From an uncultured Bacteriovoracaceae bacterium (GTDB lineage: Bacteria > Bdellovibrionota > Bacteriovoracia > Bacteriovoracales > Bacteriovoracaceae): a DNA stretch of 64,000 nucleotides. The stretch is from contig CALHLC010000030.1 of NCBI GenBank assembly GCA_938034385.1, positions 1 through 64,000 of the forward strand, given 5' to 3'. The notes below the pieces were generated by a model, which ran no database searches, was not told the origin of the DNA, and saw only the letters and a list, made by a program, of their open reading frames with translations. Both the position numbers and the translations under genes were made by a program. Below, piece by piece: positions 499-52,740 of the stretch (position 1 is its first letter; each line of letters begins with the position of its first letter).

Positions 499-1656
499 TT
501 AGAATTTTTTACTCATTCCTCTGTAGGTTTTAAATTCTACATCTTGCTCTCTTACCCAAAATGAATTGAAATGCTCTAATAGTTCTCCAGCTTTAGCATG
601 TCGAAAGATTATTGGATCTCCTAAATTGTAACTTTTTGTTGATTGGAAAGGTGTTTGAACCTCTCCACACATCTCAGTTGAGATGAGTTTCACACTCGAA
701 TCAATTGGAACAGGAGATTTTTCTTTTCCTATCGAACCCGAAGCTACATAACCTCCTCCATAGAGAGTATATTTTTCCGGCTCTGGGTTTCGAGTAACTT
801 CAAGAGCAAAGAAGAGTGAAGGTTTTAGCTTTAAGTTTTTGTATCCATCAAATAAGCTTGGTGCATAAAACCCTGATCCAACAGTTATCTCAGTTACACA
901 TTCTTCTTCAATAGAACTATCAATACTTCCTGTTCCACCTGCATTGACGAAGTCTAATTGTATATTTTTCTCATTTAACCAAGATACTACCTCTGCTCTA
1001 AATCGTCTTAACCTTTGAATAGATTTTTTCTTTAAAACCGGTACAACTAAATTCTCGACCAAACTAGAACTTATATCTCTTACGCCTGCCACTTGAGCTT
1101 CATAACCCATCACAGCTTTTATAGAAATATTTTTCAAGCTTTTACTATAAAAAAAGATCTCCTGTAAATCATTTAAATTTTTTATGCTAGATCTATAGAC
1201 ACCAAAATTCAGGCCAGGCAATTTCATTGATAGGTCTATGTCTATACAAACATTTATGTTTTTATTTGTTACTGAAGATAAGATATCAAGATGTTCTTTT
1301 GAATCTATCATAAAGTAAATTTCTTCTAAAGATGGATGATTTGTTATTTCCTCTAAGATTTTTTTATTAACCACTGGGTAAGCAATCAAAATATTTTCAA
1401 AACCTTCTTCTAATAGCCAAAGAGCTTCTTCGGCACTATAGCACATCAAGCCATTATACTTTGCTCCTAGTTTCATCTTTAAAAGTTTTAATATTTCAAT
1501 TGATCGTATTGACTTTGTTGCTAGACGAATTAGCTTATCTCCTGATTCCCGAGTAAAGAACTCAACATTATGGTTGAAATTTTCTTCAACAAGAAACGCT
1601 AATGGAAATTTTTTTCCCTTTAATTCTTCTTTAAGTTTATTAAGTTCATTAATCAT
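499..1656 (-). CDS. PLP-dependent amino acid aldolase/deaminase (D-threonine aldolase-like, fold type III)
   Basis: A 385-residue protein with an alanine-racemase-type barrel. The likely PLP lysine is K48 in RLATKSIRS, matching the lysine near the start of the barrel in the D-threonine aldolase/D-serine dehydratase superfamily. A phosphate-binding-like NAGGTGSID segment and EITVGSGFYAPSLFD follow in the second half. The C-terminal HAKAGELLEHFN segment resembles proteins annotated as amino acid deaminase/aldolase, where a histidine there helps hold a divalent metal. Family members cleave beta-hydroxy amino acids or remove ammonia; the substrate here is unknown. It is divergent from the ceramidase gene across 43 bp. 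No Shine-Dalgarno sequence is obvious. Confidence 0.75.
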   Translation of the reverse strand: MINELNKLKEELKGKKFPLAFLVEENFNHNVEFFTRESGDKLIRLATKSIRSIEILKLLKMKLGAKYNGLMCYSAEEALWLLEEGFENILIAYPVVNKKILEEITNHPSLEEIYFMIDSKEHLDILSSVTNKNINVCIDIDLSMKLPGLNFGVYRSSIKNLNDLQEIFFYSKSLKNISIKAVMGYEAQVAGVRDISSSLVENLVVPVLKKKSIQRLRRFRAEVVSWLNEKNIQLDFVNAGGTGSIDSSIEEECVTEITVGSGFYAPSLFDGYKNLKLKPSLFFALEVTRNPEPEKYTLYGGGYVASGSIGKEKSPVPIDSSVKLISTEMCGEVQTPFQSTKSYNLGDPIIFRHAKAGELLEHFNSFWVREQDVEFKTYRGMSKKF

Positions 1657-1699
1657 TATAATATATATTAGCTTATGTTAGTAAAAAGGCACAATCAAC

Positions 1700-3403
1700 A
1701 TGTCTAAAAATTTTCAAATTGGATTAGGGAAAAGCATTATTACTCCTAATATAAAAGATTCTATCTTTTTAGGATATGCACGACCAGATCAAAAACTTAT
1801 CGAAGTAAAAGAAGAGTTACATTCAAGAACAATTATTTTTAAAAATGATGACACTTATTTCATTTATGTAAATATAGAGCTAGGTTTTGTAACCGACAGC
1901 ATATACCAAGGTGTCTTTAATAAATTATCTGAACTTTCTATGTTTCAAAATATTTCTCGAGACCAATTACATATTAATGCTCAACATACTCATTCTGCTC
2001 CAGGTGGTTTTGACCATTATCCTTTATACAATATGCCAAATAGTGGTCATATCCCCAAGGTCTTGAACTCAATTATTGATGGAATCCTTCGCTCTACAGA
2101 GCTCGCTTTTAAAGATATTTCTCCAGCAAGTTTACAATACCAAGAAGGTAATTTTCCGGAGGATTCAGAAGTCTCTTTTAATCGCTCTCTTAAAGCATAT
2201 TTCAAAAACCCGGAAGTCACCAATAAAAAACAAACTCAAAAAGAAGCTGCTCCAAAACATGTAGAAATGCTTGTTATTAAAAAAAATAATCTCATAAAAG
2301 GTTTTATAAATTGGTTCCCCGTTCATTGTACTTCTCTTGGGAGTACAAATAGGTACGTTCATTCTGATAATAAAGGAATTGCCTCAAAAATCAGTGAAGA
2401 AGGCAACGATAGAGTATGTATTTTCTCCCAAGGTAATGCAGGGGATATTTCTCCCAATTTTATAAAAGAAAAGCAGAAACATCGAGACTTTAGAGGAAAA
2501 TATAAAGATGATCTGGAATCCACTGAATACAATGGAAAACTACAAGCAGACCAGGCCTTAAAAATATTAAATAAAAATAAGTCCCTTGAATTAAACTCAA
2601 TTATCGACTCTGAACTTATATATTTAGATTTTTCAGATATGAAAGCAAAAGACTTTACTGAAGCTAATAATAAAAAGAGTACTCATGGAGCAATGGGTGT
2701 TTCCTTTCTTTCTGGTTCTCCAGTTGATGGAAGGGCCTTTAATGAGCTCATCTCGCACATCTTTAATGTCTTAGCTTTAGTTCTGAATAAATCTCATCAA
2801 GCCAAGAACTTTATCCTTTATAGGCCTAAGTATAAAAAACGAAAAATTCATGAAAAGCTTCACGGCAAGAAAAAAATTATTCTTGATACTGGCCTCAGAC
2901 AATTCCTAGCAAGTTCAAGAAGTAGATGGCTTCATATTTTCAGACATGTAGATCCTTTGATGAATACTTTTGCTGTTCAATTCTTTCAAGGAGCTTTAGC
3001 TGAACATTCTTGGCTTCCTGAAGTCTTGCCTGTACAAATTTCTCAACTGGGAGAAGTTGCTCTTATTTCAATTCCAGCGGAAACAACGACAATAGCAGGA
3101 CTAAGAATAAAAAAGTCTCTTGAACCTATTTTAGCTAAGAAAGGTATTACAAAAGTGATCCTTGCTCCTTATGCTAATAATTATTGTGGTTATATCACAA
3201 CTCCTGAAGAATACGATGTTCAATTTTATGAAGGTGGACATACTCTATATGGGAAATGGACGTTACCTGGCCTAATTAATCAATTAGAAAAGTTTGCCAA
3301 TGAATTTCTAAAACCAAAAACTCAAAGAGATCTTGATAAATTATCTATTCCTCCTCAATTTTCGGAAGCAGAGCTTTCCAAAAGAACCAACACTATATTA
3401 TGA
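1700..3403 (+). CDS. Neutral/alkaline ceramidase family amidase, no signal peptide
   Basis: Neutral ceramidases are zinc amidases that split ceramide into a sphingoid base and a fatty acid. This 567-residue protein has the hallmark NAQHTHSAPGG (zinc-ligand region, H96/H98), FPVHCTSLG (H209, second zinc-ligand region) and GNAGDISPNF, where S251 aligns with the nucleophile of the GDxSPN motif. Bacterial relatives are usually secreted, but the N-terminus MSKNFQIGLG is not a signal peptide, and an in-frame TAA a few codons upstream rules out an earlier start. It should act in the cytoplasm unless exported another way. AAAAAGG at 1683-1689 is the likely ribosome site. It is coupled to the aldehyde dehydrogenase gene downstream. 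Confidence 0.85.
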   Translation: MSKNFQIGLGKSIITPNIKDSIFLGYARPDQKLIEVKEELHSRTIIFKNDDTYFIYVNIELGFVTDSIYQGVFNKLSELSMFQNISRDQLHINAQHTHSAPGGFDHYPLYNMPNSGHIPKVLNSIIDGILRSTELAFKDISPASLQYQEGNFPEDSEVSFNRSLKAYFKNPEVTNKKQTQKEAAPKHVEMLVIKKNNLIKGFINWFPVHCTSLGSTNRYVHSDNKGIASKISEEGNDRVCIFSQGNAGDISPNFIKEKQKHRDFRGKYKDDLESTEYNGKLQADQALKILNKNKSLELNSIIDSELIYLDFSDMKAKDFTEANNKKSTHGAMGVSFLSGSPVDGRAFNELISHIFNVLALVLNKSHQAKNFILYRPKYKKRKIHEKLHGKKKIILDTGLRQFLASSRSRWLHIFRHVDPLMNTFAVQFFQGALAEHSWLPEVLPVQISQLGEVALISIPAETTTIAGLRIKKSLEPILAKKGITKVILAPYANNYCGYITTPEEYDVQFYEGGHTLYGKWTLPGLINQLEKFANEFLKPKTQRDLDKLSIPPQFSEAELSKRTNTIL

Positions 3404-3447
3404 ATTTAGAAAAACAATCTTCAAAGTTTCAAATCAAGGAACAAAAC

Positions 3448-4929
3448 ATGAATCCAATTAGCAAGGCACGAATTGCTCACAAAAAAATTAAATCATTATC
3501 TCTTGACCAGAGAATTGAACTCATTGATAACTTTAGAAAATACATCTTAGAAAATGACGATCTTATTGTTAAAAATATTCAAAATGATACTAAAAAATCC
3601 AGTGGGGATGCTTATATAAGTGAGATTTTTGGAGTTCTAGAACATCTCGATTTTCTATTGCATAAAGCTAAAAAACATTTGAAAGATAAAAAAGTTCATA
3701 CACCAATTGCAATGCTTGGAAAAAAGTCTCGTATTTATATGGACCCATTAGGTGTCATATTAATTATCTCTCCTTGGAATTATCCTTTCTATCAGGCCAT
3801 CGTTCCAATCACTACGGCTCTAGTTACTGGAAATGCTGTAGTTTATAAGCCATCAGAATTAACTCCTATGACTGGATTTTTAGAAGAAGTTCTAGAAAAA
3901 ACACTTGGTGAATTCCGAGATTGCGTCCAAATTATTTATGGTGACGGCCAAACAGGTAAAGAGTTAATTGATCATAGACCTGACAAAATATTTTTTACAG
4001 GAAGTGTAAGAACTGGAAAAAAAATTATGAAACAGGCCAGTGACTATTTAATTCCAGTTGAATTAGAACTTGGTGGAAAAGACCCTATGTTAGTTTTTGA
4101 AAACTGTGTTCTTGAAAGAGCAGTTCGTGGGGCTCTATGGGGAAGCATGACTAATTGTGGACAGTCTTGTACTTCAACTGAAAGAATATTTGTTCATGAA
4201 AATATTTATTCTGAGTTTAAAGAAAAACTTATTATAGAAAGTAAAAAAATCATTCAAAAAGTTGATAACGATGGAAGTTCAGATATAGGAGTAATGACTA
4301 GTCCGGCCCAAATTCAAATTATCAAGGAACAATTAGAAGATGCTCTCACTAAAGGAGCAGTTCAATTAAGCGGACATGAGTGGGACAAAAGCAATCCATC
4401 CATTCCACCAATCATTTTAGATAAAGTAGATTCTTCGATGATGATCTATAATGAAGAAACCTTTGGCCCTTTAGTTTGGATTAAAAGCTTTTCATCTACT
4501 CAAGAAGCTATTGAACTTGCAAATGATTCTAAATATGGATTAACTGCAAGTATTTGGAATACGAATATTTCCGAAGCCCAAGAAATTGCTCATCAACTAG
4601 AAGTGGGTGGTGTCTCAATTAATAATGTTATGTTAACTGAAGGGAATCATGAACTCCCTTTTGGAGGTGTTAAAAATTCTGGTATAGGTCGATACAAAGG
4701 AGAAATTGGTCTTTATTCTTTTTGTAATATTAAATCCATTATTATTGATGGAGGACATAAGAAAATTGATCCAAACTGGTACCCTTATACACCAGAGAAG
4801 TATAATTTATTCAAGACAATGACTCATGGATTATTTGGTGGAGGGGTAGCAAATTTTATTAAGTTTGGACTCAATGGCCTCAAGCTTGAATCATTAAGTA
4901 CTAAGCTTGGTATGAAAGGTAGAAAATAA
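3448..4929 (+). CDS. Aldehyde dehydrogenase, class 3 (fatty aldehyde) type
   Basis: NAD(P)-dependent oxidation of aldehydes to acids. From M3448 the protein has 493 residues. It shows the cofactor-binding ISPWNYPF and KPSE, the FTGSVRTG turn, the base E207 in ELGGK and the nucleophile C241 in NCGQSC, then EETFGP. The compact length and motif spellings resemble eukaryotic ALDH3 fatty aldehyde dehydrogenases. An upstream ATG at 3400 overlaps the ceramidase stop (ATGA). I prefer 3448 because AAGGA (3436-3440) lies seven bases before it and because the distance from this Met to the first conserved KS matches ALDH3 proteins. The neighbour suggests a fatty aldehyde substrate, which is inference. 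Confidence 0.88.
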   Translation: MNPISKARIAHKKIKSLSLDQRIELIDNFRKYILENDDLIVKNIQNDTKKSSGDAYISEIFGVLEHLDFLLHKAKKHLKDKKVHTPIAMLGKKSRIYMDPLGVILIISPWNYPFYQAIVPITTALVTGNAVVYKPSELTPMTGFLEEVLEKTLGEFRDCVQIIYGDGQTGKELIDHRPDKIFFTGSVRTGKKIMKQASDYLIPVELELGGKDPMLVFENCVLERAVRGALWGSMTNCGQSCTSTERIFVHENIYSEFKEKLIIESKKIIQKVDNDGSSDIGVMTSPAQIQIIKEQLEDALTKGAVQLSGHEWDKSNPSIPPIILDKVDSSMMIYNEETFGPLVWIKSFSSTQEAIELANDSKYGLTASIWNTNISEAQEIAHQLEVGGVSINNVMLTEGNHELPFGGVKNSGIGRYKGEIGLYSFCNIKSIIIDGGHKKIDPNWYPYTPEKYNLFKTMTHGLFGGGVANFIKFGLNGLKLESLSTKLGMKGRK

Positions 4930-4931
4930 AA

Positions 4932-5390
4932 CTATAAAGTTGCGTTAAAATCATTACTTTGTATCAAGTCACTTAACTCTTTATCATCTATTGACTCTAA
5001 TCTTTGAGGAGACCAATTCATTTTCTCCATCACTCGCGGGTGAGATGAATCAAGACTCTCCAATCCCGAGTAATAAAGTGAGCAACTGAGTCCTTTCAAT
5101 CCCATATTTATCAATCTTGCTGTAGGCCTTAAAGACTTTGCTAGTTTTTCATTCCGAGATGCAATTTTTAAAATAATTACTAATAGTTTTTGAGGAAAAA
5201 GAGAGAATACTCCAAGTAATATATTTAATCCAAAGATATCATCGCTCTCCATATTCTCTAATTGTCTATCTATATACTTAATAAAGCCTGACTTTGAAAA
5301 TGAACAAAGTTCATCATCACCAGGGATATAGACATCTCCACATTTTTGAAGACCTCTCATAGCAAAAGAATTTAAATATTTTGATTTCAT
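4932..5390 (-). CDS. Putative small subunit/partner of the GMC oxidoreductase
   Basis: A 152-residue protein whose start overlaps the GMC oxidoreductase stop by one base (TAATG), so the two are probably translated together. I do not recognise it firmly. The early segment CGDVYIPGDDELCSFSKSGF and the following helical stretch resemble in outline the small gluconate-2-dehydrogenase-subunit-3-type partners that accompany GMC flavoproteins. No signal peptide or twin-arginine motif is seen. The middle (LLGVFSLFPQKLLVIILKI) is hydrophobic and may contact the partner or the membrane. Its 3' end lies two bases from that of the convergent aldehyde dehydrogenase gene. The function is inferred from position only. 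Confidence 0.5.
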   Translation of the reverse strand: MKSKYLNSFAMRGLQKCGDVYIPGDDELCSFSKSGFIKYIDRQLENMESDDIFGLNILLGVFSLFPQKLLVIILKIASRNEKLAKSLRPTARLINMGLKGLSCSLYYSGLESLDSSHPRVMEKMNWSPQRLESIDDKELSDLIQSNDFNATL

Positions 5391-6766
5391 TAAATAAATT
5401 TCTCTACTGCCATTTTTGATAAGGCCATAATTGTAAGTGATGGATTAATACCTGGAGCATTAGGGAAAATACTAGAGTCTGCACAAAAGATATTTTTTTG
5501 ATCATGCAATTTAAACTCAGGATCAACTACTGATTGAGATCCATCAACTCCAATAGAGCAACCACCCATTAAATGGAGTCCTATCCCAAACTCTCCTTCA
5601 ATAACTCTTTTTGCTCCTTGAGAATAAAAAATATTTTTAATCGCATCATAGCCTAAGTCTCTTCTTTTTAAATCCACGCTATCTAATTCTTTATGAACGA
5701 TTGTTTTATTATGCTTACCAACCCTTATCTCACCAGGATTTGTGTCTCTAATTGCAACTTCGATACTGGCAAACCTTCTAAGATTTTTCATACAATAAAA
5801 ATGCTCATCCTGAATTCCTTTAAAAAGAACTGACATCGCCGCAGGTGGAGCAAAAACATTTTCCAGCTTAAAACCTTTTCTCCTAAAATTTAAATCATTA
5901 GATTTATAACTCTGCAATGGTCCTTTATAAGCATCAATATTATAATCAAACTCAGCCATTAACATATACTGAGGGTGAGTATAAAACCTTTTCCCAATAT
6001 TTGGATTTTTAAAGTTGGAATTCATTAATAATTTCGAATTCCCTATTGATCCAGAAGCAAGTACTAGTTTATCCGCACTAAAACTCCATTTTTTATCAAG
6101 CCTATCTAGTCCGTGAACTTTAACTTTCTCACCAGGTTCAATTCTTTTTACTTCAAACTCTGAAAATACTTTTAATCCTTGTTTTAGAGCTGATCTTACA
6201 TAAGTAATCATTGTGCTTTGCTTACTATTGATAGGGCAACCAGCCAGACATTCTATGCAATCCATTCCTTCACTATTACGACAATCAGTTTGACCTCTAT
6301 CTAAAAGATCACAACGAAACCCATTGGCCTTAAACCCTTCTCTAAATATGTCTGCATTTTTATTAGCAAACTTTTCAGGAACTTTAACGATAGATGTTGT
6401 ATTTTCTACTTTTTCAAACCATGGAGTCATTACCAAATTATTAAAAAAATCTACTCCTGATTCATCTTTGAAACCTTCAAAAGCAAGATCATCAAACCTA
6501 TCTAAAAGACCACCATTTATAATTGATCCACCACCAATCATCTTAGGCCTTACTAAACCAATCTCAGCATCACTTGTTAATTCAACACCACCATTCCAAT
6601 ACATTTGTGAATTTGAATCAATATCAAACCTTGGATAATTATTCGTATAAAAGAACTTTCCAGCTTCTAGCATTAAAACTGAATGACCTTTTGCAACTAG
6701 CCCTTCAGCAATAATAGATCCTGAAACTCCTCCTCCAACTATAATGTAATTAAAATGATCCTGCAT
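5390..6766 (-). CDS. GMC-family FAD-dependent alcohol oxidoreductase
   Basis: A flavoprotein of 458 residues. The dinucleotide fold is at the very start (YIIVGGGVSGS, residues 7-17), with EAG at the end of the second strand. GGGSIINGG (78-86) is the GMC signature region. The C-terminus carries HLMGGC and NPSLTIMAL, typical of GMC proteins that hold catalytic His/Asn residues there. Cysteines at 162, 170, 173 and 177 form a cluster seen in cholesterol-oxidase-like and long-chain alcohol relatives; whether it binds metal is unknown. The start codon lies inside a perfect 13-bp hairpin (6757-6787) and has no Shine-Dalgarno sequence. The Rossmann fold begins at residue 7, so no later start is possible. 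Confidence 0.85.
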   Translation of the reverse strand: MQDHFNYIIVGGGVSGSIIAEGLVAKGHSVLMLEAGKFFYTNNYPRFDIDSNSQMYWNGGVELTSDAEIGLVRPKMIGGGSIINGGLLDRFDDLAFEGFKDESGVDFFNNLVMTPWFEKVENTTSIVKVPEKFANKNADIFREGFKANGFRCDLLDRGQTDCRNSEGMDCIECLAGCPINSKQSTMITYVRSALKQGLKVFSEFEVKRIEPGEKVKVHGLDRLDKKWSFSADKLVLASGSIGNSKLLMNSNFKNPNIGKRFYTHPQYMLMAEFDYNIDAYKGPLQSYKSNDLNFRRKGFKLENVFAPPAAMSVLFKGIQDEHFYCMKNLRRFASIEVAIRDTNPGEIRVGKHNKTIVHKELDSVDLKRRDLGYDAIKNIFYSQGAKRVIEGEFGIGLHLMGGCSIGVDGSQSVVDPEFKLHDQKNIFCADSSIFPNAPGINPSLTIMALSKMAVEKFI

Positions 6767-6811: not shown

Positions 6812-9550
6812 TTACTCTGATTTATTTATTTCATCAAGAAGAATAAGAGCTTCGTTATTTCTTATATAGTCTCTATATGAACAAACATTCTTTCTATGGT
6901 TTTTTGCACTAGTAGTTAGAAAGTAATTATAAGAGAGTTTTAACCTTCTATCTAATACATCATCTTTCTTATAGTTAGTATCAACATATGGATTCGAAAT
7001 CTCTGAGCCATTACATATAGAAGCAAGAAAAGATCTATTTTTGATAAAAGATAGTGATTGTATACAATACTTACTCTTTAACCATTCATAAGATCCGTCT
7101 CCACCAACATCTGTTAAAAGAACTGCGTCAGGATCCCACTGAAACTTGTATGGATATCTATCGCTATGGGCAACAATATTATAAACACTTGTAAAGATTC
7201 CTTTAACTGTTTCCCATGCTTTTGTTGGAGAAAACCATTGCTTCTTTAAATATTTACTTGTTGCGTCTTCTTTTAGTTTTGTAAATCTTTGCTTTTCTGC
7301 TTTTGTTAAGTTTTCATCATTTAGATCATACATTAACAATGCATCTGTAAATTGGTGTTTCGCTCTCACGTAAGAATTTTCATTCTTAAACCATTCTTTA
7401 GTCATTCTTTTAATATAATCCCATTTCCCATAGTCTCCTTTAACTACAGCGTCAAGAGAATAAATTGCTCCAACAAAATGATCTTTTACAAACGTTTCCA
7501 TTACACTTAAGTTCTTGTTTGAAATAGCTAAAGCATTCTTAATATCTTCATTTTTCAGAGCGTATGAAACATTAAAACCACTGTTGATCGTTGGGTCCAG
7601 AACTTCAGACATGACTGATGCTCCAGAAATAACCATCCAATTATTTAAGTAATCACTCATTTCATTTTCTCTAACTAATAGTCTCATGTCATACATAGCA
7701 AATGTTTCAATTCTTCTTTTAAAGAAGTTTGATTGTTGTAATAAAACATTAAATTCTTTGAATACAGTTTTAATTACTTTTGCATTGGCTTCCATTTTTG
7801 CATGCTCAAAATCTTCGGTATTGGACTTTCTAATCTTTGACTCTTTTTTCATTTCACTAAAGGCCCTATCTAGCTTAGGCAATAAGCTTTCAATGTTTCC
7901 TAACATTGTTTGAGCAGCAATAAGTTCATTCGAAACAATCAATTTTTTCTTTTCACTTGAATCTGAAGAGCTCATTATTGCTTTATGCTTACTCTCAATT
8001 AAAGTTAATCTCTTTTTAAACTTATATAAATAATTATAAATATTATGCATAGACTCATAAACAGAGATGCCTACACCTTTATAAAGACTTGAAACAAGAT
8101 CTACTTTATCAATAACGAGAAAGTCATTCATATAATCAAGTAATTGATTTTTAGCAGTCAACATGATTTTTCTAAAGTTATAAGTAATTACATTTAAAAC
8201 TTCATCTGGGTTATCTAGACTACAGTGGAACTGTCCAGAGTTTTCAAGAAATTTTCTCCACGTGTATGAAACTCTTGCATTATACGAAGTTCCACATTCA
8301 GGATCAATCCAGTTATCTTTACCTTCAAAGTCACGGTCATAAATTCCTGTTACTGGTGGTGGTGCCTTCTTTTTACCTATCAATAAAAATGGAAGCTGTG
8401 TCTGAGGATAGTTCGAAGTAATGAAGTTTACTCCTTCCCATTGACGAGTTAACTCATTAATAACAAAACCTAGGATCTCAAGGATTTTTGCTTTCTTGCC
8501 GTTCTCTCCACTTGCATTACTAAAAATACTTTCAATTTCAATTACTTTTTCATTAATAGTACCAACAACTTTATTTTCATCTTTAATAAGATTTATTGCT
8601 GTTTCCCAAACTTCGTTCTTTCTTTCTGCTTCTTTTGTAGTAACAGGTTCATTTCCAAAAAGAACATCTAATAACCATCTAGAAACATTTGGAACATCTC
8701 TTCTTAATACAAAATAAGCTTCCAAAGGATTATACTTTGAATCTTTTTTAATTTTTTTAGAAGCAAGACTGTTGTATTGTGTTATTTGATCTGAAAGGTC
8801 TTTAGCATCTCTAATTGAACAATATGAATCTGTAGTACTTTCTATTAAACAAGATAAATCATTCCAATATTCAAATGTTTTATCTTGATTGAGAGCTTGT
8901 CTAATATCATCATTTTGAATTAAATCCAAAAAGTTTCCAACCAAGTTGTTTGTATTCTTAGCATTTGCAAAAGTTGATTTATTCAAAGAATTTCCAAGCT
9001 TTACACTGGCCATTAATAGTTGTGCAATTGGAGCTCCTCCACTTGCAATACAACCTTTAAACTCTGGATCTTTAATGTTTGCATTAATTGACCCCATCAC
9101 CCTATTAGAAAAATTTACTCCAGCTTCTACTGAAGATTTTATTTTTTGAGCAGCTGCTGCGTAAATTGTCGTAGAACTTAGAGTTTTACTAGCTAGTGCC
9201 ATGGTAGCGGCTTTTGTAACTGCAGGATTCATATTTGCCCCACCTTTACTAGTAAAGTTTCTTAAATTAACGATATTATCTAAAGTTGTTATTGGAGAAC
9301 CTTTTTCTGGATCCTTCAAATTTCTATCTTTTAAATTATTAATTCTTTGTAATTCATCTAAGTTAAAACCATCGGCAAAGCTTTTACACTGGGCCTTAGT
9401 CCTAAGACTATCAATAGCAGAACGAATTGCTTCCGTTTGTTGAGTTGCAATATCACTCCAATGTCCAGATTGAGATGCACAACTACTTCGACTTTGTGAA
9501 AAACTGACTAAAGATAGTACAGTTGAAACAAAAAATAACACTTTTCCCAT
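6812..9550 (-). CDS. Large exported protein of unknown function
   Basis: A 912-residue protein starting MGKVLFFVSTVLSLVSFSQS, a clear type I signal peptide. The ATG at 9550 is chosen because GGAGG (9560-9556) lies five bases upstream; a longer frame from 9613 has no such site. The mature part is mostly helical and rich in Lys, Asn and Ser, with scattered cysteines (for example in SSCASQSGHW near the start and in CNGSE and KNVCSYRDY near the end) that could form periplasmic disulfides. No lipobox and no further membrane segment. I recognise no domain. It is divergent from the small exported protein at 9736. Confidence 0.75.
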   Translation of the reverse strand: MGKVLFFVSTVLSLVSFSQSRSSCASQSGHWSDIATQQTEAIRSAIDSLRTKAQCKSFADGFNLDELQRINNLKDRNLKDPEKGSPITTLDNIVNLRNFTSKGGANMNPAVTKAATMALASKTLSSTTIYAAAAQKIKSSVEAGVNFSNRVMGSINANIKDPEFKGCIASGGAPIAQLLMASVKLGNSLNKSTFANAKNTNNLVGNFLDLIQNDDIRQALNQDKTFEYWNDLSCLIESTTDSYCSIRDAKDLSDQITQYNSLASKKIKKDSKYNPLEAYFVLRRDVPNVSRWLLDVLFGNEPVTTKEAERKNEVWETAINLIKDENKVVGTINEKVIEIESIFSNASGENGKKAKILEILGFVINELTRQWEGVNFITSNYPQTQLPFLLIGKKKAPPPVTGIYDRDFEGKDNWIDPECGTSYNARVSYTWRKFLENSGQFHCSLDNPDEVLNVITYNFRKIMLTAKNQLLDYMNDFLVIDKVDLVSSLYKGVGISVYESMHNIYNYLYKFKKRLTLIESKHKAIMSSSDSSEKKKLIVSNELIAAQTMLGNIESLLPKLDRAFSEMKKESKIRKSNTEDFEHAKMEANAKVIKTVFKEFNVLLQQSNFFKRRIETFAMYDMRLLVRENEMSDYLNNWMVISGASVMSEVLDPTINSGFNVSYALKNEDIKNALAISNKNLSVMETFVKDHFVGAIYSLDAVVKGDYGKWDYIKRMTKEWFKNENSYVRAKHQFTDALLMYDLNDENLTKAEKQRFTKLKEDATSKYLKKQWFSPTKAWETVKGIFTSVYNIVAHSDRYPYKFQWDPDAVLLTDVGGDGSYEWLKSKYCIQSLSFIKNRSFLASICNGSEISNPYVDTNYKKDDVLDRRLKLSYNYFLTTSAKNHRKNVCSYRDYIRNNEALILLDEINKSE

Positions 9551-9735
9551 TAATTCCTCCGAATAAACTCGTTTTAATTGATTTGTGGATATTATTTGCA
9601 ATCTAGAGGCCAAGTATTTTCATTGCTTTAAAGTCATTAATCTAATCCTTAGAGTTTTTGTGATTTCAGGCACTTATACTCATATTCAAAATCAACTTCT
9701 AGATAGCTCATAGAAACTTTGATACTTTAAAGGTA

Positions 9736-40379: not shown

Positions 40380-42176
40380 TTAGTCGATCACTTTTGCGTA
40401 ATTTGAATCTTTTTGATTAATTATTCTTGGTGTGAGAAAAATCATTAATTCTGTTCGAGATTTTATAGGTCTATGTCCATTTGAAAAAAGCCAACCTATA
40501 AGTGGAATCTTTCTCAAAAGTGGCACACCTCTTTTTACTTGCGATTCAGTTGTCTGATAAATCCCACCGATGACAATTGTAGAACCATTATCTACTACTA
40601 CAGAGGTCTTTAAGTTATTATTACTTTTGTTAGGCGGAGGACCATTTATTTGCCCAGTACCTTGTTCAATGAAGCTCTCTTTCTTTAAGTCAATATCTAG
40701 TTCAATTGATCCATCATTCGCTATTGTTGGAGTTACATTTAGACTCAAGTCTGCTGTTATTGGTTCATAACTTGTCTGGATATCATCTCCAGTACCTGTT
40801 GTTACAGTTTGTGACCTTTGATCTTGTGTTGAGATTGTAGCTGTTTTTTTATTGAGCGTAACAAGCTTTGGAGAAGAAATTATCTTAGCTTTACTTTCTT
40901 CCTCTAATAACTGCAATGTAGCATCTAGCCTAGTTAGTTTCCCAAACAAGCTTAACCCTATTGATAACAATCCTCCGGTGCCATCAGGGTTCACAAAAGA
41001 ACCTCCATTGAATCCAAAGAGTGCTCCTTGAGCGTCTTCTGTTAACCCGTTACGTCCATCAGCAGTATATGTACCTTCAATACCATTTTGAAAGCCAAAC
41101 TCTTTCTTAGCACCTTCAATCATTTCAACAATTCTTGCTTCTATTAAAACTTGTGGGTTACTAACATCTAAAATATCGATAACTTGTTTCATCTTTGCAA
41201 TATTTTCAGCAGTCTCTTTTACAATAATTTTATTAGTTCTTTTATCAACACTAATACTTCCCTTCTTCTTATCAACAAAAGCCTCAATGTTTTTTTGAAT
41301 ATCTGCTGGCTTAGAAAAACTAACTGAAAAAACCTTTGTCATCATTGGCTCTTCAGTCTTTAGAGCTTCTTGTTCATCTCGAACCTTTTTAGCATCGGAT
41401 AAGAACTTCTTTTTCGTTATAATTTGCAAGACATTTGAATGTTTTTTTGCCACTAAATCGTTTAAATTCAAAATTGTATCTAAAGCTTCATCCCATGGAA
41501 CATTTGTAAAACTTATAGTCACCGGAGGTCTCTTGAGCGCTTCCTCACTCATTGCAATATTAAACCCCGAAGTTTCTGAGATTAAATTCATGACCTCAGC
41601 AAGTGGAACACTTCTAACATTTATCGTTATAGGACTCCCAATATATCTCTTCTCTCCTGATTGAGTGAGGTTAGTAATAACATCGTAAGTCGGGGCACCT
41701 GCACCAGTACTTTCAAATCCTCTCTCTTCAAGTCCATCATCATAATTATTGATAACTGGTGCTTGAGCAACTGGTCCATCAATCACACCATCCTTAAAGG
41801 CACCAAATCGATTTTCTATTAATAGCTGTACCTGATTTCCATTTTTCTCTATTCTTGAACCAACATTATCTCTAAGCTGAACAACTACTCTTACTTTAGA
41901 GGCACTTTGCTTATAAGCTGAAACATAAACTGTTCCACCAGAAAACTCTGACGTATTAATCGGTCTAAGTACGTCTGATCTAGCGCTTGCTCCTTCAATA
42001 TCTAAGATAATTTGTTGTTCATTCGTCTTGTCGCTTTTGATAACTTCTACATTCCCAGTCGTATCCAAGATTAATCGACTGACATCTCCTGTTTGCACAA
42101 ATTGCATATTAGTAATTTGTTCAACAGAAAACACATTAAAAGAAATTAAGCTGATAAATAAAATAATAGATTTCAT
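40380..42176 (-). CDS. pilQ: Type IV pilus secretin PilQ
   Basis: PilQ forms the outer membrane pore for the pilus. From the ATG at 42176 the protein has 598 residues: signal peptide (MKSIILFISLISFNVFS), one AMIN domain that binds peptidoglycan, an STN/N0 domain (ITINVRSVPLAEVMNLISETSG), N1, and the secretin domain with VPLLRKIPLIGWLFSN near the end. The AMIN region is single and short compared with other PilQ proteins. AAGGA upstream supports the start. It ends the pilM-N-O-P-Q unit. Confidence 0.92.
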   Translation of the reverse strand: MKSIILFISLISFNVFSVEQITNMQFVQTGDVSRLILDTTGNVEVIKSDKTNEQQIILDIEGASARSDVLRPINTSEFSGGTVYVSAYKQSASKVRVVVQLRDNVGSRIEKNGNQVQLLIENRFGAFKDGVIDGPVAQAPVINNYDDGLEERGFESTGAGAPTYDVITNLTQSGEKRYIGSPITINVRSVPLAEVMNLISETSGFNIAMSEEALKRPPVTISFTNVPWDEALDTILNLNDLVAKKHSNVLQIITKKKFLSDAKKVRDEQEALKTEEPMMTKVFSVSFSKPADIQKNIEAFVDKKKGSISVDKRTNKIIVKETAENIAKMKQVIDILDVSNPQVLIEARIVEMIEGAKKEFGFQNGIEGTYTADGRNGLTEDAQGALFGFNGGSFVNPDGTGGLLSIGLSLFGKLTRLDATLQLLEEESKAKIISSPKLVTLNKKTATISTQDQRSQTVTTGTGDDIQTSYEPITADLSLNVTPTIANDGSIELDIDLKKESFIEQGTGQINGPPPNKSNNNLKTSVVVDNGSTIVIGGIYQTTESQVKRGVPLLRKIPLIGWLFSNGHRPIKSRTELMIFLTPRIINQKDSNYAKVID

Positions 42177-42221
42177 GATCTCTTCCTTAAGTATCAATGA
42201 GTATATTTTATTTTATAAAAG

Positions 42222-42668
42222 TTATTGTAAAATAGGAATAACCGATTCAACGTATTCAGGCTGGCCGTATACATTAGTGATTTCCTCAACAAATAAAAGT
42301 GCCTTAGGTAAGATCTGTTTTAAAACAATATCCTGTCTTTTTATCTTCATTCCTTCTCTTAGAACGAACATTCTCTTAGATCTTCCTCCCTTTTCTTTTA
42401 CTAGGGCCTTTTTGTTGGTCTTTGAATAGACAATGGCATGAACGACAAGTTTTTCAAGAGGTATATGATTTCCAGGTATTTCGTTAGTAAAAACCCCTCC
42501 TTCAAATCTAGATTTTTTCTTAACTTTAGATTCACCGTCGCCTAACTCTGGAGATTTAAATGGATCTCTCAAATCATATGGGTTTTCTAGATTTAGTATC
42601 TCTTCGAAAACTTCTGTTTGAGAAAAAGATGTTATAGAAACAAAAAGCAGTAGTATTAAAATTTTCAT
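42222..42668 (-). CDS. pilP: Type IV pilus inner membrane lipoprotein-like PilP
   Basis: A 148-residue protein with a signal peptide (MKILILLLFVSITSFSQ) but no visible lipobox, unlike the lipoprotein PilP of Pseudomonas. The segment YDLRDPFKSPE resembles the PilP motif (DPF), and the C-terminal half is a small beta domain (VLREGMKIKRQDIVLKQIL). Its place between pilO and pilQ fits a role linking the inner membrane complex to the secretin. Overlaps pilO by four bases. Confidence 0.78.
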   Translation of the reverse strand: MKILILLLFVSITSFSQTEVFEEILNLENPYDLRDPFKSPELGDGESKVKKKSRFEGGVFTNEIPGNHIPLEKLVVHAIVYSKTNKKALVKEKGGRSKRMFVLREGMKIKRQDIVLKQILPKALLFVEEITNVYGQPEYVESVIPILQ

Positions 42669-43264
42669 CCTTTACCACCTTTTTTCTTCTTCACTTCATG
42701 ATCTTTATTATAATGAAAAGTTTCAATAATTGTTTTAAAGTCTACAATCACGTGCTTACTCTTATTAATAATAGAACTTGAAGTTACCTCAACCGAGCTA
42801 ACGTTAAAAATTCTATCTGGTTTTTTCATCTTTTCAAAAAACACCAAAAACTGAAGATAAGTTCCTCTACCTTCAAATTCTATACCGTTAGTTATATATA
42901 AGCCTCCATGGTTTTCTTTTTCATATTTAGGCTTAAATGAAATGTTTTTTATATTTAAACTACGTGCAACTCTTGAAAGCTCATCTAAAATAGCCGTCCT
43001 ACTACTTATTGGTGGTATAAACTTTCCGACTTTTTCTAAATCTTCTTTAGACTTATCTACTTTACTTTTAAAATCTTTAACATTCGATCTTACTTCTTTT
43101 ATTTTTTGAATTGCTTTTTCTATTTCATTGTTTTCTTTTTCTAGTGCTGGAATTTTTGACAACTCAGACTTAATTGACTCTTCTTTTTTTTGCCAAGATT
43201 CATACAAGTCAGAAAGTCCCACTCCCATCAATGCAAGAGGTGCTAATATCATTAATAACTTCAA
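42665..43264 (-). CDS. pilO: Type IV pilus alignment protein PilO
   Basis: A 199-residue protein with one N-terminal membrane segment (MKLLMILAPLALMGVGL), a coiled coil (about 20-75) and a small ferredoxin-like domain at the end (KPKYEKENHGGLYITNGIEFEGRG). It is ATGA-coupled with pilN on one side and pilP on the other. Assignment relies on topology and order, since sequence conservation in this family is low. Confidence 0.8.
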   Translation of the reverse strand: MKLLMILAPLALMGVGLSDLYESWQKKEESIKSELSKIPALEKENNEIEKAIQKIKEVRSNVKDFKSKVDKSKEDLEKVGKFIPPISSRTAILDELSRVARSLNIKNISFKPKYEKENHGGLYITNGIEFEGRGTYLQFLVFFEKMKKPDRIFNVSSVEVTSSSIINKSKHVIVDFKTIIETFHYNKDHEVKKKKGGKG

Positions 43265-43863
43265 AAGCTCACCACCTCAGATTCAATAAAAAACTCTTCT
43301 ACTCTTTTCCCTGAAGGTTTTATTGTTTTTGTAACATGATTCACCAACTTTACTTTTTTATTTAAAAAAATTGAAGAGTCTAATTGTTTAATAAATTTAT
43401 TAAGCTTAGCAAACGTTAACGCATACCCATTAATTTTAACTTTTTTATTTCTCAAACTAATATTTTTAATCCAAACTTCTTTAGGAATATTTTCAGAGAC
43501 ATATTTCATTATTCTCATTGGATTATTCTTCTTCTCTAAAACCTCTTTCACTATCTGAGTTTTCTTAATAAATTCAGCCTCTGCTTCTTTAAACTCTTTT
43601 AGTTTTCTTTCTTCAGCTTTAATTCCCTTCGAGCTTCTCTTTAGAGTTTTATTTTTTATTAAGACCGAAGAAACCTCACTTACTTTATCTTCAACTTCTT
43701 TATCCCACTGATCTTGATAAAAAAGTTGAGGCCCAAATCCAATCAAAACACAGATCGCCCACAAAGGGATGTTTAGACTTCTCACATCTACATTTTCTGA
43801 AATCTTGCTTCCTAAAGATCCTTTTTTCGATTTCTCGTTATAATTTAGATTAATCTTAATCAT
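43261..43863 (-). CDS. pilN: Type IV pilus alignment protein PilN
   Basis: A 200-residue protein. The short cytoplasmic start MIKINLNYNE corresponds to the INLLP-type motif that binds PilM. One membrane segment (IPLWAICVLIGFGPQLFY) is followed by a coiled coil and a small C-terminal domain. It overlaps pilM by eight bases and pilO by four. Confidence 0.8.
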   Translation of the reverse strand: MIKINLNYNEKSKKGSLGSKISENVDVRSLNIPLWAICVLIGFGPQLFYQDQWDKEVEDKVSEVSSVLIKNKTLKRSSKGIKAEERKLKEFKEAEAEFIKKTQIVKEVLEKKNNPMRIMKYVSENIPKEVWIKNISLRNKKVKINGYALTFAKLNKFIKQLDSSIFLNKKVKLVNHVTKTIKPSGKRVEEFFIESEVVSF

Positions 43864-44923
43864 ATGCTCTTAAACCTAACCCCAAGCATACGGCTCCTGA
43901 ATATGTTAAATATTCTATGATTCCGTCACTAATATTACCTTTAGTGGAAACACTTATTTTTCTCAAAGGATCAAGTGTTTCAACTGAGATATCTAAACCT
44001 TCAATAAGGTCTTCTATAATTCCGGGCTGTCTTGAACAACCACCAGTAATAAAGCAATGCTTTATTCTATCTTCCGAATTTGATGATGTATAAAACGCAA
44101 CTGCATCCACAACTTTGCTAGTAATAGATTTTGAAATCTTCTTAATCGCAGCTAGAACTTCATCAGGATATTTTGTATCAGTTTGATTCATTTTTTTTAA
44201 GTCTTCAGCTTGATTAAAGTCAATACCAACTTCTTTTTGAATCTCTTCTGTAGTATTTACTCCACCCATAATAATAGTTTTAACAAGTAAAGGTAATCCG
44301 TTTCGATAGACAATAATCTTAGTACTTTGTGCACCAAAGTCTATAATTAAAGTTCCATCTCTATATTCATGTAAGTAATCACTGTAGTTGTGTTCAAAGA
44401 TATTTATTAAAGATAACACTTGTAAATCAACTGTTTTCATCTTCAACCCAGAAGCAAAAATTATTTCTTGATATCTTGCAATATCTTGAATCTTTGCAGC
44501 GGCCATTACAACATCTCGATTAACTTCATTGGTTTTTTCCATGATATGTAACGACACTTCAGCATTTTCCATTCCAAAAGGAATAAACTGCTCTGCTTCC
44601 CAGTGAATATGATCTTCAATATCATCTTTTGATCCCTCTGGAGATTTCATAGATTTAACTATTGATCCACTTCCAGCTAATCCAAAACATACATCTTTAT
44701 TTTTAAAACCACCTTCTTTAAAAGCCGATCTAATTTGTTCTACAATTTGAGTTCTATCGTTTATTTCTTCTTCTAAAATTGCAGATTCAGATAATGGAGC
44801 AAATGAAAAAGATTTCAAAGTATAAGTACCTTTTTTACCTTGAGCCAAAGTTGCTAATTTTATAGCACTCTGCCCAATGTCCAAACCAATTAAAGGCTGC
44901 TTTCCTAATAGACTATCAAACAC
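43856..44923 (-). CDS. pilM: Type IV pilus assembly ATPase-fold protein PilM
   Basis: A 355-residue cytoplasmic protein of the actin/FtsA fold that binds the PilN N-terminus. It starts LIGLDIGQSAIKLATLAQG (phosphate 1 loop), and contains LIIDFGAQSTKIIVY (phosphate 2) and FITGGCSRQPGI (adenosine region). Start is GTG at 44923 with AAGGA six bases before it. A TATAAT box at 44948-44953 in the 67-bp gap suggests a promoter for pilM-N-O-P-Q, but no good -35 box is visible. Confidence 0.9.
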   Translation of the reverse strand: MFDSLLGKQPLIGLDIGQSAIKLATLAQGKKGTYTLKSFSFAPLSESAILEEEINDRTQIVEQIRSAFKEGGFKNKDVCFGLAGSGSIVKSMKSPEGSKDDIEDHIHWEAEQFIPFGMENAEVSLHIMEKTNEVNRDVVMAAAKIQDIARYQEIIFASGLKMKTVDLQVLSLINIFEHNYSDYLHEYRDGTLIIDFGAQSTKIIVYRNGLPLLVKTIIMGGVNTTEEIQKEVGIDFNQAEDLKKMNQTDTKYPDEVLAAIKKISKSITSKVVDAVAFYTSSNSEDRIKHCFITGGCSRQPGIIEDLIEGLDISVETLDPLRKISVSTKGNISDGIIEYLTYSGAVCLGLGLRAYD

Positions 44924-44990
44924 TACTTATCCTTTTTACCTTCTATAATTATAAACTAGGTAGCCGTGAATACAAAAAAAATTTAGATCT

Positions 44991-45752
44991 TTATGTAAAT
45001 TTTAAGAATAGACTTTCCAAAAATCCCGGAAAAAAGAGCTGAATACTTGAGACAAACAGTATGGATGGACCAAAAGGGACTGGTACTTCTTTGTCTGATA
45101 CTTTTCCAATGGCCATCAAAGCAAGAATAACAAGAGTTCCAAGAAGTGAGCTAAAAATAATTGTATATAAAATGTTAAATGGCCCTAGATAAATCCCAAG
45201 CATTCCAAAAAGGACTATATCTCCTCCACCCAGACCAATTTGACCTTTATATTTTTCGTAGGCATAACCCAAAAGAAAAAGTGGAATAAAGCCAATAATA
45301 AATCCAAAAATATAATGCTGCCAAGAATAATCCCTAACAGCTAACACAAGCAAACATGCTCCTATAATTAAATTAAGCGAATGTGGCAAAATATAATGTT
45401 CTAAATCTATAAAAAACTGAACTATAAAAAGACAAATCACTATAGAGAACATAATCATTTTAAGCTGATCTACTTCAAAGTATCTCATGAAGACATAACT
45501 ACCTAGAAGCGCAGTTAAGAGTTCAACGAATGGATATTTTGGGGAAATTCTCTCTTTACAGTTTTTGCACTTCCCTGCCAAATATACGTAACTTAATATT
45601 GGAATATTTTCTTTCCATGTAATTAACTTTTTACACTTAGTACAATTTGATCTTTTAACAACAATATCTTCTTCTCGAGGAATCCTATAAATCAGAACAT
45701 TTAGAAAACTTCCTATTAATAAGAAAAAGATAAATACAGCTATTGATATCAA
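44991..45752 (-). CDS. pilD: Prepilin peptidase PilD
   Basis: A 253-residue membrane aspartic protease that removes the prepilin leader and usually methylates the new N-terminus. It has a cytoplasmic zinc loop with two CxxC pairs (CTKC, CKNC), a first aspartate in DLEHYILPHSLNL and a second in the GLGGGD (GxGD) motif, within about seven membrane segments. It overlaps the permease gene by four bases. Its substrate PilA lies in the same cluster. Confidence 0.93.
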   Translation of the reverse strand: MISIAVFIFFLLIGSFLNVLIYRIPREEDIVVKRSNCTKCKKLITWKENIPILSYVYLAGKCKNCKERISPKYPFVELLTALLGSYVFMRYFEVDQLKMIMFSIVICLFIVQFFIDLEHYILPHSLNLIIGACLLVLAVRDYSWQHYIFGFIIGFIPLFLLGYAYEKYKGQIGLGGGDIVLFGMLGIYLGPFNILYTIIFSSLLGTLVILALMAIGKVSDKEVPVPFGPSILFVSSIQLFFPGFLESLFLKFT

Positions 45753-46510
45753 TGAATATCCCTTGATTTAAACACATAGTATGACAAAGCAGAAATCACT
45801 AAGTAATACATTAATCCATAGAGTATAATTTTCAAATATACGATACTCTCCAACGGAGCCTCTCCGACATAATTAGATAAATTTAACTTATAAAAATTTG
45901 GCATTGCTAAATTTATATATCCAAGAACTTTTGCCATGAATCCCTTAATGAAAAACCTTGAAGTACTTATCCCTTCAAAGAGTGAAGTGAATATAAAGAT
46001 TGAAAAGCATAGAAAATAATTTAAATATTCGTTAATAAAAAATGAAAAAAGCATGCTCATAGCTGAGATTACGAGGGTTGATAAGAAAAGTGTACTTAAA
46101 GAATAAACGATGTTTACATCAAAAATCCCTCCAAAAAATGAGTAAAGAGCAATAACTAAAGCTGATAAAAAGATAAATATCATCCCAATAATTAGAACTT
46201 TTCCAATTATCTTACCAATAAAAAATTCTAAGCGGCTGACTCCTTGGCTAAGAACAAGAGGAAGGGTCCCATTTTCAATTTCTTTTTTTATACTACTTGC
46301 ACTTATAAACAATGATGTAAAAATCAAAAATAAGTATATAATTGTTTGCCCTATATCAATAGTTGTTTTAGCGACAGTCTTGTAAGTAAGCTGTGCACTT
46401 ACAAACGTTAACAAAAATACAATTACTCCTATAAAGAGAGTTGCATAAAAAGATTTTCCTTTTATGAATTCTTTAACAGATAAAAATGCAATACTTTTTA
46501 CTTTGTTCAT
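45749..46510 (-). CDS. ABC-2 type permease of the pilus cluster (pilI position)
   Basis: A 253-residue protein with six predicted membrane segments and the ABC-2 permease look: a polar N-terminus (SVKEFIKGKSFYATLFIGV), then KKEIENGTLPLVLSQGVSRLEFFIGKIIG between the second and third segments. It is ATGA-coupled with the ATPase before it. In Myxococcus xanthus the genes pilH and pilI between pilA and pilD encode such a transporter; the position here is the same. Substrate unknown. Confidence 0.82.
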   Translation of the reverse strand: MNKVKSIAFLSVKEFIKGKSFYATLFIGVIVFLLTFVSAQLTYKTVAKTTIDIGQTIIYLFLIFTSLFISASSIKKEIENGTLPLVLSQGVSRLEFFIGKIIGKVLIIGMIFIFLSALVIALYSFFGGIFDVNIVYSLSTLFLSTLVISAMSMLFSFFINEYLNYFLCFSIFIFTSLFEGISTSRFFIKGFMAKVLGYINLAMPNFYKLNLSNYVGEAPLESIVYLKIILYGLMYYLVISALSYYVFKSRDIH

Positions 46511-47310
46511 AAAATACTTCTCTCGATTTTTATGACATTCAATAGTTTATATTTTTTTTCTTTTAATCCTTGCAATGACTCACTTAAAGAACTTTCATCT
46601 GCAACAACTTCACTCACTACATTTTCTTTTAAGTATTTAATCCTATACGTCTGATTCAAGTCATAAAAGTATTCTTGGGCAAGACCATTAAATTCGATTC
46701 TCCCATTTACAATCTTTATAATTCTATTACTCAAATCTGCAATATCCTGCATATTATGACTGGTGATAAAAAACGACTTTCCGTCTTTTGAAAACTCTTT
46801 AATTATATCCTTGATGATCTCCCTTGCATTTATGTCAACACCAGATAAGGGTTCATCCAAAATAACGAGTTCTGGATCATTGATCAAAGCAGAAACAAAT
46901 CCAAGTTTTTGAATCATTCCTTTAGAATAATTTTTAATTCTCTTTTCTTGATCATTTTGAATTTGCAATCTCTCAAGCAAGTCTATGACTGATGATCTTT
47001 TCAATGAATTTGTATTAAGACTTGAAACAAAACTTAAAAACTCTCTACCAGTTAAGTCTTTATATAACTTTGTTTTCTCGGGAAGGTATCCAATAGATTT
47101 AGTGTTTTTTTCTATTTTTCCACTTTCAATTCTTATAAGATCTAGAATCGCTCGAATAGTCGTTGATTTACCACTACCATTTGCCCCTATAAAACCAATA
47201 ATTTCACCTTTTTGAATATTAAGACTAACTTTATCAAGAACTTTTTGATGCTCTTTATTTTTATTGATAAAATACTTTTTAGTGACATTATTTAAATCAA
47301 CAATATTCAT
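46507..47310 (-). CDS. ABC transporter ATPase of the pilus cluster (pilH position)
   Basis: A 267-residue ATPase with Walker A GANGSGKST, signature YSKGMIQKLG in a somewhat divergent form, Walker B LVILDEPLSGVD and a histidine switch (FFITSHN). I start at the ATG 47310 ([13 protein letters not shown]), where ABC proteins normally begin; a frame open from 47379 would add 23 residues. This ATG overlaps the opposite-strand ATG of the TPR-like gene. It should power the permease next to it. The Myxococcus counterpart is pilH. Confidence 0.85.
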   Translation of the reverse strand: MNIVDLNNVTKKYFINKNKEHQKVLDKVSLNIQKGEIIGFIGANGSGKSTTIRAILDLIRIESGKIEKNTKSIGYLPEKTKLYKDLTGREFLSFVSSLNTNSLKRSSVIDLLERLQIQNDQEKRIKNYSKGMIQKLGFVSALINDPELVILDEPLSGVDINAREIIKDIIKEFSKDGKSFFITSHNMQDIADLSNRIIKIVNGRIEFNGLAQEYFYDLNQTYRIKYLKENVVSEVVADESSLSESLQGLKEKKYKLLNVIKIERSIL

Positions 47311-47899
47311 GGTTTTGTTTTCATCTTTGTTTTTACTTAATTCTAGTATCAATTTACCAAAAATGAAAAACTCTACCAATACAAATTTAAGCTCTAATTT
47401 AGTTAATTTTTCTGGGAAATTTAATAAGTTCTTATCATCTTTAATTTGGATAGAAACACTTTTAGATTCTAATACTGATCATTACAAAGGTGAGCCTTTA
47501 CAGTCTTGGCACTACAATAGATTTAATGCGATAACGGATCTAGATCCAACCTTTTTAGAAGCATACAAATATGGAGGATTATTCCTGTCAGTCATAAAAG
47601 ATGATATTCCTGCAGCTACAGAGTTATATAAAAAAGGCATAGCTAAATTTCCACAAAATTATCACTTAAACCTATATGGTGCTCTTCACTTTATAACTGA
47701 AACAAATAATTATGAAATTGCTAATTTATATTTAGACACTATTAAAAAAAAACACCCAACAAATCCACTTATTAAATCTTTATATTACTCAACAAAATTA
47801 AAGTCCATAGGCGATAAAGCTCTTTTAAGAAATGAAATTCTCAAAGACCCAATTAACCCTCAATTTAAAAAATTTTTACTAAAGAAACTTAAGCTCTAA
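47309..47899 (+). CDS. TPR-like membrane-anchored protein in the pilG position
   Basis: A 196-residue protein from the first ATG (47309). A hydrophobic N-terminus ([10 protein letters not shown]) is followed by a polar linker and then TPR-like helices: [43 protein letters not shown] and [17 protein letters not shown]. It is the only plus-strand gene in the pilus block. A later ATG at 47363 would remove the hydrophobic start. Its stop overlaps the pilA stop region by four bases. Myxococcus has pilG between pilA and pilH; I cannot tell whether this is its homologue. Confidence 0.6.
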
Positions 47900-48417
47900 T
47901 AACCAGCTTGTACATGATCTAACTTTTTAACATTGTTAATACACCATTGATCAACTGTACCAGAGTTTGAAATTTTCGCTGCCGCTCCAGCTCCAAACCC
48001 ATTTTCTCCTGAAGCACCACAGGTATGTGTTAACCCTTGCCCTGCTGGTCCTCCTCCATAATTCTTAAGCCCAGAAAACACCCCATCCGTTGCAGTATTA
48101 CCACTAGTACAACCTGTTGGTAAATCAGTCCCACCAGTGGTTGCAACCGTCATTACTCCAACTGTATAGTACATATTTGCTTGTTCATCTGCAGAGGGAG
48201 AAAAACCCATAAAGCTTAAACAATACGCGTAAGTTCCATATTCAGCATTAAATCCAGCTTCAGCTGTATGAATAGAGCCCAAAGAAACTTTCGCTTCTGA
48301 AGTACGAGCCTTGGCTTGATATTTTTGATAATTCGGAACTGCAACTGCACTTAAAATTCCAATAATTGCAACAACGACTAATAACTCTATTAGTGTAAAA
48401 CCATTATTATTTTTCAT
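47896..48417 (-). CDS. pilA: Type IVa major pilin PilA
   Basis: A 173-residue prepilin with a six-residue leader and the cleavage site [10 protein letters not shown]; the glutamate at position 5 of the mature protein is present. The hydrophobic spine is followed by a helix ([15 protein letters not shown]) and a Gly/Thr-rich globular domain with several cysteines, the last pair able to close a C-terminal disulfide loop. AGGGG lies seven bases before the ATG. The gene has its own upstream gap of 80 bp with a TATAAT box. Confidence 0.95.
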
Positions 48418-48442
48418 AAACGTACCCCTTAATAATAGTATA

Positions 48443-48448
48443 ATTATA
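48443..48448 (-). promoter_or_regulatory. Candidate -10 box of the pilA promoter
   Basis: A perfect TATAAT on the minus strand lies 25 bases before the pilA ATG, between two GGGGTA copies (48423-48428 and 48447-48452 as read in reverse). No good -35 box or GG/GC sigma-54 pair is seen, although Myxococcus pilA is sigma-54 dependent. Confidence 0.35.
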
Positions 48449-48497
48449 CCCCAAGTATTGAATATTTAAAATAAATCTCTGAGAAGTTTTATCCTCT

Positions 48498-49724: not shown

Positions 49725-49728
49725 TTAC

Positions 49729-50958: not shown

Positions 50959-50974
50959 TATATTTCCCTTATTC

Positions 50975-52642: not shown

Positions 52643-52740
52643 AGTTTTACCTATGATATTATTCGGCATATTCACTGCAATACTTAAAATGCTGAAGCGA
52701 TCAGGAATGCTAGGAAAAGATTGCTCTTTATTGGATATAA

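Follow-up and report, generated by a model that had tools for sequence, protein, structure and literature searches.

A conserved gene cluster of Bacteriovoracaceae that probably degrades ceramide, a variant of the Pseudomonas cerN/sphBCD system

In Pseudomonas aeruginosa, sphBCD and cerN are part of the sphingosine-induced SphR regulon (PMC5150637; PMC3900636), in which SphC resembles D-arabinono-1,4-lactone oxidase (ALO) and SphD has an alanine racemase N-terminal domain (PMC5150637). A study from 2025 showed that sphBC is needed for sphingosine depletion and that sphD is dispensable for growth with sphingosine, and it did not identify the SphBC product (PMC11893366). We rejected a reading of SphC as a GMC enzyme, since it is described as ALO-like (PMC5150637) and the sphBCD-type loci of Pseudomonadales (L187 and L188), made up of a cytochrome, a Tat-type ALO and a fold-III enzyme, agree with that description.

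Here we describe a related locus from an uncultured Bacteriovoracaceae bacterium, whose genome assembly is 2.67 Mb long and 99% complete. The stretch analysed (the window) covers 64,000 nucleotides from the start of contig C30. An earlier note on this DNA had pointed to five adjacent genes as a possible ceramide-to-fatty-acid cluster. We found five ORFs at exactly the same positions, 499–6766 (table 1), and the Pfam and NCBIfam families agree for four of them, SMALL having none. Both here and in relatives, a neutral ceramidase, a flavin alcohol oxidase and a fold-III PLP enzyme occur together, as in the SphR regulon of P. aeruginosa (cerN, sphA, sphBCD). Unlike that system, however, the window has GMC and SMALL rather than a Tat-exported ALO-type SphC with the cytochrome SphB, ALDH is part of the unit, and the ceramidase, with no evident signal peptide, is encoded inside the cluster. 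No cytochrome was found among the cluster genes with Pfam, neither sphR nor sphA was seen in the window's cluster, and ALD is only about 18–20% identical to the SphD-like proteins of the sphBCD-type Pseudomonadales loci, which are not P. aeruginosa's own SphD. The open-access literature, to which our search was confined, yielded no description of the GMC/SMALL/ALDH version.

Table 1. Features of the cluster in the window
Feature	Position	Strand	Description
ALD	499..1656	-	PLP fold-type III aldolase, D-threonine-aldolase-like, 385 aa; PF01168 Ala_racemase_N
Start region common to divergent ALD and CER	1657..1699	.	43 bp, from sequence
CER	1700..3403	+	Neutral ceramidase, 567 aa; PF04734 Ceramidase_alk, 325 bits, E=1e-96
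ALDH	3400..4929	+	NAD(P)-type aldehyde dehydrogenase, 509 aa; PF00171 Aldedh, 364 bits, E=1.5e-108
SMALL	4932..5390	-	152-aa helical GMC partner; matches no Pfam family
GMC	5390..6766	-	GMC-family flavin oxidoreductase, 458 aa; PF00732/PF05199

The block consists of the divergent pair ALD and CER followed by GMC-SMALL, which converges on ALDH, and the start of ALDH overlaps the stop of CER. The next ORF upstream of GMC, in the same orientation, encodes 933 aa from a TTG start (6812–9613); it is 81% identical in the congener G003 and matches no Pfam family. Genes of type II secretion type (secretin, T2SSF, T2SSE) are found farther along the window, at 40380–52675.

In alignments with 2zws and 4wgk, CER keeps all catalytic residues of the P. 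aeruginosa ceramidase 2zws, that is, the zinc ligands H96, H209, E461 and Y498 and the nucleophile S251. H209, E461 and Y498 are invariant in the CER alignment (A4), and H96 and S251 were checked in the same columns. The protein is shorter than PaCD (567 against 646 aa) and scores below the curated NCBIfam equivalog cut-off (220 versus 1200 bits). Its N-terminus is not hydrophobic; the ceramidases of the same cluster type in Chitinimonas have a hydrophobic, signal-like one. Judged by their residues, CER and the other enzymes of the cluster look functional. The ceramidase of the congener G001 (L028 5950–7688) is broken by two TGA and two TAA codons, reflecting either decay or an assembly error. 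In the congener G002 (L029) CER is kept beside the same downstream genes (greA, recG-like), and no ALD or SMALL match was found in that genome. A 1255-aa open frame with a ceramidase in another genome (G233, L213 8216–11983) runs out of frame through ALO and is probably a spurious extension.

The predicted model of ALD (pLDDT 94) has D-threonine aldolase 4v15 as its best PDB fold (E=3e-23), followed by beta-hydroxyaspartate aldolase 6qkb. It shares fold III with both at a TM of about 0.8, and its PLP lysine K48 aligns with Lys59 of AxDTA. In AxDTA the catalytic base is His193 and the metal ligands are His347 and Asp349 (PMC4401734). By sequence and without superposition, ALD differs in all three, with G191 in place of the histidine and K355/E358 apparently replacing the metal pair, and it belongs to a separate subfamily; its full-length relatives are 34–79% identical to it. 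Threonine aldolases are described as strict at the alpha carbon and loose at the beta carbon (PMC4761611). In the congener G001, an APH/choline-kinase-like gene (L028 3814–4827) overlaps the end of ALD by 4 bp. ALD homologues with 33–38% identity sit with ALO in L044 6884–10645 (a Mycobacterium riyadhense plasmid), L046, L041 and L042 (Burkholderia); in M. riyadhense an M28 peptidase lies between the two genes. Such loci perhaps follow the same logic of amide hydrolase, alcohol oxidase and aldolase with other parts.

In ALDH, the catalytic residues C257 and E223 are kept in the alignment and there is a conserved C-terminal tail. The earlier note had called it a class-3 fatty aldehyde dehydrogenase; the Aldedh family holds, and class 3 is one candidate placement among several, as the ALDH3 structure 3sza (E=3e-63), 4h7n (1e-66) and BADH (3e-65) score alike. 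GMC retains His398/Asn441 and four invariant cysteines, C162, C170, C173 and C177 (alignment A1), two of which align in FAD glucose dehydrogenase with Cys218 and Cys222, which are Fe-S ligands there (PMC6719666). Because the spacing of the third ligand differs, these cysteines are only possibly an Fe-S site. With its GMC catalytic subunit, its Fe-S-like motif rich in Cys and its small partner, the set recalls the alpha and gamma subunits of the FAD glucose/fructose dehydrogenase BcGDH, but a fold search of the PDB did not match SMALL to the gamma subunit, SMALL has no Tat signal, no cytochrome subunit was seen, and the Cys spacing is another. We rejected SMALL as a homologue of gluconate 2-dehydrogenase subunit 3 or of the GDH gamma (hitchhiker) subunit, for which Pfam, PDB-sequence and fold searches gave no match. 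SMALL matches nothing in Pfam or NCBIfam; its AlphaFold model is confident (pLDDT 93.6) and all-helical, and the best structural match in the PDB reaches a TM of about 0.3, so that the model may represent a new fold. At 25 of 80 GMC loci the N-terminus of ALDH carries SMALL as a fusion, which argues, on Rosetta-stone grounds, that the two work together.

These 80 loci were found by scanning named genomes with the GMC profile; neighbours were called by HMM, and many recurrent neighbour clusters, being antisense shadow ORFs, were left out. SMALL is present at 75 loci, ALDH at 65, ALD at 40 and CER at 7. All five families meet at 7 of the 80, in Bdellovibrionota (the window's genus, Halobacteriovorax and others) and in three Chitinimonas species (Betaproteobacteria), whose clusters add FadL and a TetR-type regulator. 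An ALD, or a protein distantly like it, is encoded somewhere in 75 of the 80 genomes, including 35 of the 40 in which it is not near GMC. In 14 of these 35 (several Bacteroidota, one Sericytochromatia, some Bdellovibrionota; a few duplicate genomes already counted), ALD or its distant relative lies 21–360 bp from CER. The check proposed in the earlier note, conserved adjacency in related genomes, gave a strongly positive answer: CER and ALD adjoin, divergently or in tandem, and their direct adjacency extends over eight genera of Bdellovibrionota, Bacteroidota and one Sericytochromatia genome. Of the 40 genomes in which GMC and ALD share a locus, 16 have no ceramidase over the Pfam cut-off; therefore ceramide is not the only possible entry.

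In an even set of 291 Bdellovibrionota genomes, ALD and a strong CER co-occur in 17 (Fisher test, odds ratio 12, p=7e-9; by genus p=1e-10). The two genes lie within 1.5 kb of each other in 14 of these 17 and on different contigs in the other three. SMALL is found in 28 genomes of the set, 25 of them with ALD (p=8e-22), and also occurs without CER. Kinship is allowed for in these p values by the genus tally alone. The grouping of the cluster genes is not due to chance. A sphingomyelinase-like gene stands between CER and ALD in L035, L210, L211 and L212, and in L074, L066 and L108 it flanks the cluster; the window's genome has such a gene too, truncated at the start of a different contig. Its product has a signal-like N-terminus, sphingomyelinase C 7cne as best PDB match (E=5e-13) and sphingomyelin phosphodiesterase as best NCBIfam match, below the curated cut-off. 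Lipophilic Corynebacterium (C. falsenii, C. urealyticum and others; L070, L076–L078) have GMC/SMALL/ALDH, while their ALD is encoded at a separate genomic site; a strong ceramidase is present in C. falsenii only. A use of skin sphingoid bases is possible for these bacteria.

In many ALD genomes without SMALL, an ALO-family flavin oxidase adjoins ALD, as in operons of the order CER, sphingomyelinase-like gene, ALD, ALO. Among 73 ALD loci with a nearby oxidase, 52 have GMC/SMALL, 21 have ALO and none has both; in this count a few genomes enter twice, from two sources, and distant ALD-like proteins are part of the ALO set. A quick tree of ALD shows no fewer than six changes of oxidase type, well-supported branches forcing three of them, and twelve changes in the presence of CER. 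This pattern looks like a non-homologous replacement of one step.

Taken together, we consider it likely that the locus serves the intracellular breakdown of sphingolipids, from ceramide to fatty acids plus glycine, as a variant of cerN/sphBCD in which GMC, SMALL and ALDH replace SphC and SphB. CER, by its homology and intact active site, would split ceramide, releasing a fatty acid and the sphingoid base. In the order of steps that we infer, GMC with SMALL would then oxidise the C1 alcohol of the base to an aldehyde and ALDH would carry it on to the carboxylate, the amino-aldehyde perhaps being handed over within a complex, as the SMALL–ALDH fusion suggests. By our own reasoning, natural (2S,3R) D-erythro-sphingosine would yield a (2R,3R)-2-amino-3-hydroxy fatty acid of D-allo-threonine type with its geometry unchanged; since the change at C2 is one of CIP priority alone, this would be a D-beta-hydroxy amino acid. 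The D-specific rather than L-specific fold of the aldolase fits such a product, which ALD would cleave to glycine plus a fatty aldehyde. The aldehyde would be oxidised to a second fatty acid by the ALDH of the cluster or by a different one. Alditol oxidases can perform both oxidations, and ALO may do so in ALO systems without a nearby ALDH. Somewhat more tentatively, in what we regard as close to an even call, GMC, SMALL and ALDH may form a new membrane-associated complex that oxidises the C1 alcohol to the carboxylate without releasing the amino-aldehyde. Its product would be the natural substrate of the widespread D-threonine-aldolase-like family, and SMALL a previously undescribed family.

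The ceramide-to-fatty-acid cluster suggested by the earlier note is strongly supported by the neighbourhoods in several phyla, the sphingomyelinase-like and FadL neighbours and the cerN/sphBCD parallel, while the direct retro-aldol cleavage of sphingosine that it offered is not part of the route we favour. Its own objection, that the aldolase needs a carboxylate which sphingosine lacks, is best answered by the order of steps: GMC and then ALDH would supply the carboxylate before aldol cleavage, and the objection would therefore fall. Several points count against the pathway, namely the dispensability of SphD in P. aeruginosa, the missing His193 and metal ligands of ALD, the 16 of 40 genomes without CER, the CER of G002 without ALD or SMALL and the stop codons in that of G001.

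A different division of labour, in which GMC/SMALL/ALDH is a general complex for the oxidation of long-chain alcohols and ALD and CER act on some other N-acyl amino-alcohol or beta-hydroxy amino acid, seems to us unlikely. It would account for the 40 of 80 loci without a nearby ALD, for the 16 of 40 loci with ALD whose genomes have no CER over the cut-off and for the Bdellovibrionota with SMALL and no CER. However, ALD or a distant relative is encoded elsewhere in 35 of those 40 genomes, adjoining CER in 14, ALO stands in for GMC beside the same ALD, and sphingomyelinase-like genes are neighbours.

The window's genome gave no alpha-oxoamine synthase match, and so no serine palmitoyltransferase (SPT), which makes an outside source likely; the earlier note had thought of prey or environmental sphingolipids, and nothing in our analysis points to prey specifically. 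Turnover of the bacterium's own sphingolipids by the same chemistry is improbable in our judgement, although Bacteriovorax (Bdellovibrio) stolpii makes sphingophosphonolipids and has SPT (PMC6148460) and the congener G003 holds SPT-like alpha-oxoamine synthases (L225 1501–2805, L230 1354–2652; best PDB match SPT 3a2b, E=1e-81), so that such turnover is possible in the family. The window's CER, with no evident signal peptide, would also suit it. On the other hand, the whole cluster is kept in a genome without SPT, and in relatives the operons include sphingomyelinase-like genes whose products have a signal-like N-terminus. The reactions of threonine aldolases and neutral ceramidases can go either way. 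Together with the lack of SPT, this would allow the locus to run backwards as an SPT-independent synthesis of sphingoid bases, ALD joining glycine to a fatty aldehyde, followed by reduction and by acylation through CER. We judge this far less probable still, as the oxidations by the GMC/ALO flavin oxidase and by ALDH effectively go in one direction only, the sphingomyelinase-like neighbours point to breakdown, and the P. aeruginosa counterparts deplete sphingosine.

The cluster is a variant of a half-understood Pseudomonas system, with a protein family, SMALL, that lacks a Pfam or PDB match. The conserved clusters give a concrete and stereochemically consistent route, show two unrelated oxidases filling the same slot and name small sets of genes fit for expression and testing. 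Since lipid-loving corynebacteria of the skin and Bacteroidota have the same genes, the route may be of importance in places rich in sphingolipids.
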